DNA from: Chloroflexota bacterium
Lineage (GTDB): Bacteria > Chloroflexota > Anaerolineae > Anaerolineales > Villigracilaceae
Assembly: GCA_016213105.1 (NCBI GenBank)
Contig: JACRBN010000025.1
Span: 434,001-498,000, forward strand
Reading direction: 5' to 3'
DNA: 64,000 bases
Position 1 is the first letter of the stretch. Every line of letters begins with the position of its first letter. Below are positions 11,259 to 14,365 of the stretch, in pieces. The notes beneath the pieces were generated by a model, which worked only from the letters and a program-made list of their open reading frames with translations, did no database searches and was not told the origin of the DNA. The position numbers and the translations under genes are program-made.

Positions 11259-11984
11259 ATGAAATCGAGATCAAATCGACGAGACGCAAATTCGGACAAG
11301 GGCAAATTTTCTGCCGAGGATTTGATGAAAATGCTATACATGCAGGCGAAGGCACGCTTTGGCCCGGCCGTCAAATCGTTCTGGTTCTACGACGGCGACT
11401 TGTGCCCGGGCTGCGCCATTCGTCCCATTGGCGCGATCCAATTCAAGGGCAAGGATGCGCTGGCGATCAATTCGTTCATCTACCGCGCACGGGGCGTGCT
11501 GATCGGTTATTTTCTGTGTGGAACCTGCGCCGCGTATATCTTCGAGGAAGCGGAGAAACATCCCTACACCGAGACTCCACTGCATGCCGACATCGAGCGC
11601 AATCTGATCGAAGCCTATCATAACCATTTGTCCTCTCGATGCTTGAACGCCAGACAGAACTGTAAGCGCGGTCCGCGTATCGTGTTTTATAATCCATGCG
11701 ATGCTCCCTTATCTGCAAAACCTTTTAAGGATGACCCGCGGCGACTTTACCCTTGCGCCGCGCCTGGCGGTGTATTACGTGACCATGCAGTGCAATCTCA
11801 ATTGCGCCTACTGCGAAGACTTTGGCGCGCGGCGCAATCACCAGGTCACACCAACTCCCAGGCTGGAAGATGCCAAACGGATCCTGCGCGTCATCCGCTC
11901 GGGAGTCGACCGCCTGTGGCTGACAGGCGGGGAGCCGTTGCTGGTTTCGCACCTCGCAGAGTTGCTGGCTTATGCGCGGAATGA
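11259..11984 (+). CDS. hypothetical zinc-ribbon-like protein with probable frameshifted tail
   Basis: The frame of 241 codons starts at an ATG preceded by AAAGGAGG. Residues 1 to about 126 look like a real protein: CPGC and CGTC pairs that could form a zinc site, and a helix with LHADIERNLIEAYHNHL. The last 115 or so residues are rich in Arg, Pro and Ala, overlap the radical SAM gene by 284 bases in another frame, and include that gene's promoter. A one-base shift near 11631-11640 would give a stop at 11644-11646, so the natural end is probably about 11646. Function unknown. Confidence 0.6.
   Translation: MKSRSNRRDANSDKGKFSAEDLMKMLYMQAKARFGPAVKSFWFYDGDLCPGCAIRPIGAIQFKGKDALAINSFIYRARGVLIGYFLCGTCAAYIFEEAEKHPYTETPLHADIERNLIEAYHNHLSSRCLNARQNCKRGPRIVFYNPCDAPLSAKPFKDDPRRLYPCAAPGGVLRDHAVQSQLRLLRRLWRAAQSPGHTNSQAGRCQTDPARHPLGSRPPVADRRGAVAGFAPRRVAGLCAE
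11688..11693 (+). promoter_or_regulatory. -10 box of the radical SAM gene, leaderless type
   Basis: TATAAT ends seven bases before the ATG at 11701, and no ribosome site lies between. This places the transcription start at the initiation codon. Confidence 0.6.
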
Positions 11985-12804
11985 GTTGAAGTTCCGCGAG
12001 ATTAGTTTGATCACCAATGGGGTATTGCTATTCAGAAAACCCACCACTGAGATCACAGAGGACACGGAGAAAAGCCGTTTAAAAACCTCCGTGGACTCAG
12101 TGTTCTCCGTGGTGAAGCATGTAGACCGTCTCATCGTCAGCCTCGACTCTTTGGAGCCGCAAACCTTGAACCAGGTCAGCGTGCCAGATGCGTACGCAAA
12201 CACGGTTATCGAAAATGTGCGCGCAGCGGCTACCCTGCAAAAGGAACACCATTTCAAGTTGATCCTTAACGCCGTCATCACGCCCGAGACCCTGCCCGGC
12301 CTGGATGCGCTGCTGGCCTTCTGCGCGGAGAACCACATCCGCATTTCATTCTCGCCGCAGTCGGTCAACAACCTGCCGCGCTATGAACTGGTCACATCCG
12401 CTGAATACCGCGCCTTCATCGAAAAGCTGGTCGCGCTCAAAAAGCAGGGCGCGCCGATCCTGGGGAGTCTGTCGTATTTCAAGATGCTGCTCGATCAAAC
12501 CCCTTACGAATGTTACCCGACTCTCATTCCGCGCATTCTGCCCGACGGCTGGCTGACCTATCCGTGCCGGCCGATGGAGAAGGCGGGCGGCGAGCAGGGC
12601 GGGCGCGCCGTGAATCTGCTGAACGTTCAAAGCTGGGACGAGGCTTGGAGGATGGCGGCCAAAACATACGGCGATGCGCCCACCTCGTGCGTGTCCTGTT
12701 TTCAGCAGTGCTACGCGGAGCCGTCGCTGATGCAGGCGCATCCGTTCGAGTATTTGACCGAAAAATTCCGCGGGATGGATCCAGGCACCTATGCTCCAGG
12801 ATAA
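11701..12804 (+). CDS. radical SAM enzyme with in-frame repeat insert
   Basis: This 367-residue enzyme has the 4Fe-4S/SAM motif CNLNCAYC (C31, C35, C38), a GGEPLL segment and the SLDS strand. Later cysteines (ECYP, CRPM, CVSCFQQC) suggest an auxiliary SPASM-like cluster. Such proteins often modify peptides, cofactors or lipids, but the substrate is not evident. Residues about 114-138 are encoded by a palindromic intergenic-type repeat (12042-12114) lodged between the ITNG strand and the VDRLIVSLD strand. Its end overlaps the FAD oxidoreductase start by 14 bases, so the two probably act together. Confidence 0.88.
   Translation: MLPYLQNLLRMTRGDFTLAPRLAVYYVTMQCNLNCAYCEDFGARRNHQVTPTPRLEDAKRILRVIRSGVDRLWLTGGEPLLVSHLAELLAYARNELKFREISLITNGVLLFRKPTTEITEDTEKSRLKTSVDSVFSVVKHVDRLIVSLDSLEPQTLNQVSVPDAYANTVIENVRAAATLQKEHHFKLILNAVITPETLPGLDALLAFCAENHIRISFSPQSVNNLPRYELVTSAEYRAFIEKLVALKKQGAPILGSLSYFKMLLDQTPYECYPTLIPRILPDGWLTYPCRPMEKAGGEQGGRAVNLLNVQSWDEAWRMAAKTYGDAPTSCVSCFQQCYAEPSLMQAHPFEYLTEKFRGMDPGTYAPG
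12042..12114. repeat. REP-like palindrome inside the radical SAM gene
   Basis: The 28-base arms 12042-12069 and 12087-12114 match in 23 of 28 positions as an inverted repeat around 17 bases. The CACCAC-GAGA-CAC-GAG-CACGGAG wording resembles a common intergenic repeat of several phyla. It keeps the reading frame open and adds about 25 codons. Confidence 0.8.
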
Positions 12805-14365
12805 GGATTTGGAGTCCAAAGTCTCCAGACTTTGGATACCTAATGACGGGAGTCGTTGGAATCCAGACGTCATCGTTATCGGCGGGGGTGTGGCGGGACT
12901 GAGCGCGGCCCTGCACCTGGCCGAGCGCGGACTGCATCCCTTGATTCTCGAAGCGGATGAGCAGTTCATCGGCGGGCGGCTGGCAGGCGGGGAGACGGTC
13001 GAGGTCGGCGGAACTTCGTTTCGGCTGGAACATGGCGTGCATGGCATCTGGTCGCAGTATCGCAATTTGCAGGCCATGCTGGCGCGTCACAACCTGCGCC
13101 CGGTCTTCGTCCCTGCGCGGGAGGAGAACTGGATTCACAAGGACGGTTCCTTCCTGGGCATGGCGCCTGTCGGCTCGGCGATCCGCCGCTCGTTCATCCC
13201 GCCGCCATTTCATTACCTGCAATTATTCCTGCGCCGTAAATTCCTGTGGATGCTCGACCTGCGCGACTGGCCCTCGCTGTTCAACGTGTGGTCGGGACTC
13301 ATCATGGCGGTGGGCATCGATCCCTTCGCCGAGAATCAGCCGATGGAGGGCATCACGCTCGGCGACATGACGAAGAAATGGTCGCCTGCGCTCAAGTCGT
13401 TTTTCCTCGGGCTGGCCCGCAACGGACTTTCCTCCCATCCCGATGAAGTATCCATTTCGGGATTCATCGCCTTCCTGCGCTTTTACACGTTGCTGCGCCG
13501 CGACGCGTGGATGTTCTCCTATCTGCCCGAGGAGGGCGGCACCAGCGTCTGTGAGCCGCTGGCAGCCAGGGTCAACGAACTCGGAGGCAGAATCAGGTTC
13601 GGGTCCAGGGCGAAGCGCATCGTCCAGGAAGGGGACGTGTGGCAGGTGACGTGGGACACCTCCCAGGGCGAAGAATCCGCCTGCGCGACGCAGGTCATCC
13701 TGGCGGTCGATCCCAACAATGCGAAGAAAATCCTGACGGAGAGTTTCGGCGCGGAGGTGGACAAGTTATTCTTCCCGCGCGCGCTGTCGAACGCGGTCAT
13801 CCGCCTGTGGTTCGACGCGCAGCCGCGCCCGACCGCCGAGGCGGGCATCTTCACGGGCGATTTCACCGTGCATAATTATTTCTGGCTGGATCGCCTCTAC
13901 AATCCGTTTCGACGCTGGGCGCGGGAGATGGGCGGCTCGGCGCTGGAGGTACATGTCTACGGCCCGCCCGAGACGCTGGCCCAGCCCGATGCGGCGCTGA
14001 TCGCGCAGGCCATCACCGATGTGCAGCAGGCCTGGCCCGAACTGCGCGGACATCGCATCGGTCAGCACTTGCAGCGCAACCCCGAGACGCATACCCTGCC
14101 CGCTGTGGGCCCGAAGGAAAAACACCTGGGCATCGAAACGCCGTGGACAAATCTGTTCTGCGCGGGAGATTGGGTGCGGCATCCCGCGCCCGCCTTCTTT
14201 TTGGAGCGCGCCTGCCTGACGGGCATCGAGGCGGCTAATGCAGTGTTTTCCGCGCGCGGTTTGCAGCCCTGGCGGCTGATGGAGTATCTGCCCGCTGAGC
14301 CGTTTGTGGCGTGGATCGAGGGGTTGATGCGGAAGGGCAGGAAGAAGAGGAAATCTGGACGGTAG
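12791..14365 (+). CDS. FAD-dependent oxidoreductase (phytoene desaturase/amine oxidase superfamily)
   Basis: This 524-residue flavoprotein has a Rossmann FAD site VIVIGGGVAGLSAALHLAERG (from about residue 27) with the acidic EAD end. An NAD(P)-binding_8/amine oxidase-like body follows, and a C-terminal FAD segment LFCAGDWVRHPAPAFFLERA. These enzymes desaturate or isomerise carotenoids and related lipids, or oxidise amines. The substrate is not known. The ATG at 12791 overlaps the radical SAM stop by 14 bases. A palindrome at 12815 encodes part of a 26-residue N-terminal extension absent from ordinary members. Confidence 0.87.
   Translation: MLQDKDLESKVSRLWIPNDGSRWNPDVIVIGGGVAGLSAALHLAERGLHPLILEADEQFIGGRLAGGETVEVGGTSFRLEHGVHGIWSQYRNLQAMLARHNLRPVFVPAREENWIHKDGSFLGMAPVGSAIRRSFIPPPFHYLQLFLRRKFLWMLDLRDWPSLFNVWSGLIMAVGIDPFAENQPMEGITLGDMTKKWSPALKSFFLGLARNGLSSHPDEVSISGFIAFLRFYTLLRRDAWMFSYLPEEGGTSVCEPLAARVNELGGRIRFGSRAKRIVQEGDVWQVTWDTSQGEESACATQVILAVDPNNAKKILTESFGAEVDKLFFPRALSNAVIRLWFDAQPRPTAEAGIFTGDFTVHNYFWLDRLYNPFRRWAREMGGSALEVHVYGPPETLAQPDAALIAQAITDVQQAWPELRGHRIGQHLQRNPETHTLPAVGPKEKHLGIETPWTNLFCAGDWVRHPAPAFFLERACLTGIEAANAVFSARGLQPWRLMEYLPAEPFVAWIEGLMRKGRKKRKSGR
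12815..12836. repeat. palindrome with the TCCAAAGTC core inside the FAD gene
   Basis: TCCAAAGTCT (12815-12824) and AGACTTTGGA (12827-12836) are perfect complements around CC. The core matches the hairpin at 2343-2382. It is translated as residues of the N-terminal extension of the FAD oxidoreductase. Confidence 0.75.

Follow-up and report, generated by a model that had tools for sequence, protein, structure and literature searches.

An in-frame palindrome in a radical SAM gene

How can a palindrome resembling the repeats that normally lie between genes come to be read in frame inside the gene of an enzyme? The question is raised by a 64-kb stretch of DNA (hereafter the window), in which an open reading frame on the forward strand (11701-12804) encodes a radical SAM protein of 367 amino acids (Pfam Radical_SAM, E 7e-16) and holds, on the same strand, a palindromic element of 73 nt (12042-12114). 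An earlier note on this DNA had described 28-base arms matching at 23 of 28 positions that lie within the gene and keep its frame open, and both statements proved exact: the left (12042-12069) and right (12087-12114) arms are complementary at 23/28 positions and enclose an A-rich loop of 17 nt (12070-12086). The left arm consists of three CACNGAG units and, because both arms are built of CACNGAGNN units with a period of 9 bases, the stem is broken at regular places. These interruptions every few bases also explain why a repeat search with 9-base seeds missed the palindrome.

The element is the sole place in the window with arms matched at 22/27 or better around a loop of 3 to 60, and a comparable palindrome was absent from all 12 first-order Markov randomisations of the window. 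The RNA of 12036-12122 reached a minimum free energy of -38.4 kcal/mol (z -6.4), equalled by none of 200 shuffles, and the fold as DNA scored -18.2 (z -4.8). No Rfam family matched the window above its gathering score. Across 12 aligned copies of this repeat, which we call family A, the CAC and GAG words of the consensus hardly vary; the N positions of the unit are free, without covariation. The ends of the same 12 copies lack a GTAG/CGTC tag; a GTAG that follows the window copy at a distance of 7 bases is absent from the flanks of the other copies inspected. Inspection by eye showed no target-site duplication in the flanks of family A copies.

A second palindrome, CCAAAGTCTCCAGACTTTGG, was noticed in the next gene downstream, where it occupies N-terminal codons (12816-12835) of an HpnE-like FAD protein (12791-14365). 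A copy with two mismatches lies at 2353-2372; no such copy appeared in 100 shuffles.

The host protein is related to MoaA and viperin-type enzymes, which are also its closest solved relatives by sequence; a fold search matched SuiB, BlsE, viperin and MoaA, and a DUF3463-like C-terminal part fell just below the cut-off. The element codes for 24 whole residues (115-138, TTEITEDTEKSRLKTSVDSVFSVV). In an AlphaFold model built from 26 sequences (mean pLDDT 82), the insert is flanked by strands at residues 100-105 (11998-12015, forward strand) and 143-147 (12127-12141, forward strand); residues 115-131 are predicted to be disordered, with pLDDT below 50, and the last six codons of the right arm (SVFSVV) fall in a predicted short helix (residues 133-138). 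Judging from this model and the alignment, the right arm seems to supply the start of a helix that outgroup orthologues encode as LGLLRV or similar.

The loop is expanded in a single clade of orthologues

Orthologues were collected by a family search, which gave a match at E<=1e-30 in 23 of 152 genomes, and from an order-level sample, with a match at E<=1e-60 in 23 of 400. Loop length was measured from LITNG to SLDS in 26 aligned rows. The interval is short in all 18 outgroup rows (27 residues in 17 of them, 26 in one), so that the alignment with relatives that the earlier note had proposed as a check came out as its insertion reading predicts. It spans 48 residues in the window protein; the other ingroup rows that can be read there, six in number, have 31, 43, 52, 53, 56 and 77, so that expansion at the loop was found in 7/7 readable ingroup orthologues, always in frame. 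The eighth ingroup row (G158) is unreadable at the loop, its contig starting just after it. A repeat that broke the assembly would produce just such a contig start (L067/L077, position 1) next to an invaded loop.

With the loop masked, the eight ingroup rows formed one clade (support 100/98) in which the window is sister to G071 (94/91). The tree does not include G016 and G100, because their genes are split; their pieces over the loop show a short loop. The window gene and its G071 orthologue, again with the loop masked, differ by dN 0.136 and dS 0.86 (dN/dS about 0.16), and dN/dS lay between about 0.06 and 0.21 over ingroup pairs with defined dS, ratios that are rough because dS exceeds 0.5 in all ingroup pairs. 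These substitution patterns indicate that the radical SAM gene is under purifying selection.

The window protein gains 21 residues over its outgroup orthologues (48 versus 27), or 63 nt against the 73 nt of the element. This shortfall speaks against a clean insertion, and since the gain is 21 residues and not 24-25, about 10 nt of the original loop would have been lost or trimmed later. The earlier note's "about 25 residues between two core beta strands" thus holds for the position, strands 100-105 and 143-147 lying on either side, but is high for the amount. Its idea of an insertion tolerated in a surface loop is supported by the dispersal of the arm sequence in the genome, by the absence of the segment from the outgroups and by the disordered stretch of the model. 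Relatives carrying the same protein segment encoded by unrelated DNA, which would have marked it as ancestral protein sequence, were not seen; what we found instead was unrelated DNA encoding unrelated peptides at the same site.

Different repeat families occupy the same loop

Family A (CACNGAG) lies in the loop of the window, G135 and G166. The G166 copy is followed by a short ATTACC-type stretch resembling that of its sister G149, which has a short extension only, formed by a stretch seemingly related to the one in G166. The G137 loop contains a different repeat, family B, with at least 44 matches in the G137 genome at E<=0.001 (40 of 249 candidates scored). In G071 the loop is filled by a composite insert of 163 nt (DNA fold z -6.6), of which segment 97-163 recurs elsewhere in the G071 genome at up to 96%, segment 66-109 matches family B and segment 3-63 recurs separately. 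The loop of G138 is occupied by yet another family, the third, which has 15 matches in the G138 genome; as DNA, this insert folds weakly better than its shuffles (z -1.8, 11/200 as good).

The inserts of the window and G135 are 79% alike, and the closest copy in the window's own genome reaches 82% in the same alignment; on these sequences, the two inserts could be one old insertion. Unrelated inserts in one codon neighbourhood imply replacement or repeated insertion, not one ancestral event alone. To judge from this pattern, a single tolerant site in the protein seems to be remodelled again and again by mobile-like DNA.

Family A is dispersed, mostly outside recognisable genes

A search with the arm sequence, which the earlier note had recommended as a check, showed that family A is dispersed. 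By blastn, it was found at 25 distinct places in its own genome, a number reduced by hand from 34 matches at E<=1, in which both strands of one palindrome were counted; the best other copy is 84% identical over about 74 nt. A covariance model built from 12 copies gave at least 65 matches in the same genome, both strands counted (best 150 of 1710 candidates scored), and had matches in 16/16 genomes searched. Twenty-two own-genome places were inspected, eight further loci being the opposite strand of these places. Three of the 22 lie in open reading frames with a Pfam domain, namely, those of the radical SAM protein, a ThyX protein (L005) and a CHAT/NB-ARC protein (L022), and no Pfam domain was detected in ten long open reading frames across eight other places, the scan having covered 11 of the 22. 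Most copies lie outside recognisable genes.

Family A is thus a dispersed, mainly extragenic palindrome, as REPs are, and this part of the earlier label "REP-type" stands; the GTAG/CGTC tag is absent, and no such element was seen near 20 transposase loci, so that "REP-like" applies loosely. These 20 Y1_Tnp places were drawn from 55 found in 13 genomes, and neither families A and B, the G138 and G071 inserts nor six ThyX linkers lay within 1.5 kb of any of them. A REP transposase as the mover accordingly received no support, and no mobilising enzyme emerged from the analysis.

Three own-genome copies (L008, L020 and L026) are seemingly interrupted by another, GC-rich palindrome, a pattern that suggests repeats inserted into repeats. 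In plasmid records, the window element had no match; annotated phage records gave three partial matches to another family A copy. The triple CACNGAG motif is also common in environmental viral contigs, with at least 120 stretches (L165-L284).

Linkers of ThyX and CHAT/NB-ARC proteins hold the same element

In the ThyX protein, which has a double domain, family A lies in frame in the interdomain linker and is read in another frame than in the radical SAM protein (HRAHREHGE versus TTEITEDTE). ThyX was matched in 59 of 61 genomes, and the alignment covers 20 species with loci, across which the linker (L126-L144) varies and often consists of a hairpin or short-period repeats. Several of these linkers fold as strong hairpins, and those of the relatives hold at least three other dispersed families. 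AATCG-type and GGAATTGGA-type linkers occur as well. Dispersal was assessed with a joined query of five linkers. Three of the five (L128, L136 and L142) had many copies elsewhere, in their own or related genomes, among the matches listed, and the other two (L137 and L141) one other place each among the matches listed.

The CHAT/NB-ARC protein carries family A in frame in the linker between its domains; this linker is variable in nine aligned relatives, and the peptide encoded by the element was found in none of the nine. ThyX exceeds its same-genus orthologue by 12 residues and CHAT its nearest relative by about 6, in both cases less than the element, with the ancestral linker length uncertain. 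Hence in none of the three own-genome genes does the net gain reach the length of the element.

Origin of the inserts and rival explanations

Why such a repeat can be read at all is suggested by its unit. By reading, CACNGAGNN and its complement each give rise to a stop in a single frame, and there with a single base only, and with so few stop codons a copy of suitable length is readable in several frames. Over 12 family A copies, 43 of 72 frames are open: two of six for the window copy, and six of six for both the ThyX and CHAT copies. The stops that are left appear to come mostly from the loop.

An inserted dispersed repeat that is tolerated in the radical SAM loop is, with a high degree of confidence, the best explanation of the locus. 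A copy of a dispersed, non-autonomous, hairpin-forming repeat would have entered the gene, in frame, at the point where a core strand gives way to the next helix, and each of the inserts probably goes back to a mobile element that inserted itself there. Tolerance by the enzyme most likely rests on two features: the added stretch is disordered and at the surface, and the hydrophobic SVFSVV segment can stand in for the displaced helix start. The protein presumably stays active. Reuse of the loop would follow from its permissiveness and from a tendency of repeats to settle within or next to other repeats. A more general and tentative proposal is that, in these Anaerolineales relatives, dispersed hairpin repeats are a lasting source of protein linkers: a few permissive loops (radical SAM strand-3/helix-3, the ThyX interdomain linker and that of CHAT/NB-ARC) would be rewritten in frame time and again by the family that is active in the species concerned, and loop sequence would turn over by element replacement, not by point mutation.

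The same loop might also be a target at the level of DNA, the machinery preferring its sequence or inserting into or beside existing repeats. The composite insert of G071, the family A copy next to an ATTACC stretch in G166 and the interrupted own-genome copies (L008, L020 and L026) all fit this idea, which we nevertheless regard as rather unlikely: junction bases differ among species, the ThyX and CHAT linkers hold the element without common flanking sequence, and tolerance at the protein level alone would also concentrate the surviving insertions in the loop. Another possibility is one insertion in the ancestor of the ingroup that later diverged into seemingly different inserts. That the expansion affects one and the same position in all seven readable rows of the ingroup, and that the window and G135 share family A at 79%, would agree with such a history, yet the inserts of G137, G071 and G138 match other dispersed families and are not decayed family A, and G166 has family A beside a short ATTACC-type stretch resembling that of its sister G149. 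Family B and the G138 family refute a single ancestral insertion as the sole explanation, and we consider this history improbable.

A selected regulatory structure of the mRNA, acting in translation pausing, attenuation or transcript stability, would make the hairpin something other than a passenger, and both the stable fold and the presence, in related genes, of hairpins with different sequences at the corresponding position could be read in this way. This appears very improbable, as the short extension of G149 lacks such a hairpin and the outgroups have none, family A also occurs where no gene is recognised, and the variable stem positions show no covariation. Finally, the named relatives are metagenome assemblies and the G158 contig ends at the loop, which might evoke an artefact of assembly or binning; with the frame open in 7/7 species carrying different inserts, and with the insert being just 73 nt inside a 607-kb contig, such an origin is scarcely credible. 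The tolerated insertion of dispersed repeats remains the reading that we prefer. The loop can be regarded as a natural insertion experiment, in which chance tolerance, targeting to existing repeats and the supply of raw material for linkers can be set against each other.

Comparison with known systems

Among the matches listed in searches of the open-licence literature, none described an in-frame palindrome from this bacterial group, and the motif letters gave unrelated papers. In-frame palindromes have previously been known mainly from Rickettsia and from scattered intragenic REPs. Excerpts of the sources describe Rickettsia palindromic elements in protein-coding genes (Ogata et al. 2000, 2002, via PMC10969869, PMC6649704 and PMC3733652), and excerpts of PMC3733652 report intragenic REPs in several species, argue for the possible neutrality of insertions that fall in linkers or loops, describe two Xanthomonas species whose recB genes carry REPs at roughly the same position and mention GTAG repeats in Chloroflexi. 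Neither in-frame palindromes nor insertion at the same site is thus new in itself. The part worth following is the presence of several unrelated families in the same loop of a single set of orthologues, with a similar pattern in a second gene. The earlier reading was right in substance but understated, having missed the other element families in the same loop of related species.

Small palindromes inside genes are shared with the intragenic GTAG/CGTC REPs covered by excerpts of PMC3733652, whereas the arms here are of 28 nt, compared with stems of 5-13 bp in those excerpts, there is no GTAG/CGTC tag, and none of the tested elements lies within 1.5 kb of the 20 Y1 transposase loci. Enterobacterial RU-1/2/3 and other intragenic MITEs, to judge from excerpts of PMC2759123 and PMC10969869, are likewise small inverted repeats that give in-frame fusions; RU-1/2/3 are described there as MITE-like and 103-168 bp long, while no target-site duplication is visible by eye here. 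The likeness in principle to Rickettsia palindromic elements that the earlier note had claimed is borne out as an analogy in behaviour: as far as the excerpts go, both are dispersed palindromes of several families that are compatible with the protein fold and lie in frame in unrelated genes that remain, here presumably, functional. Unlike the Rickettsia elements, those described here have a Chloroflexi/Anaerolineales host, carry a 9-base tandem unit in their arms and belong to different families at one loop of one orthologue set.
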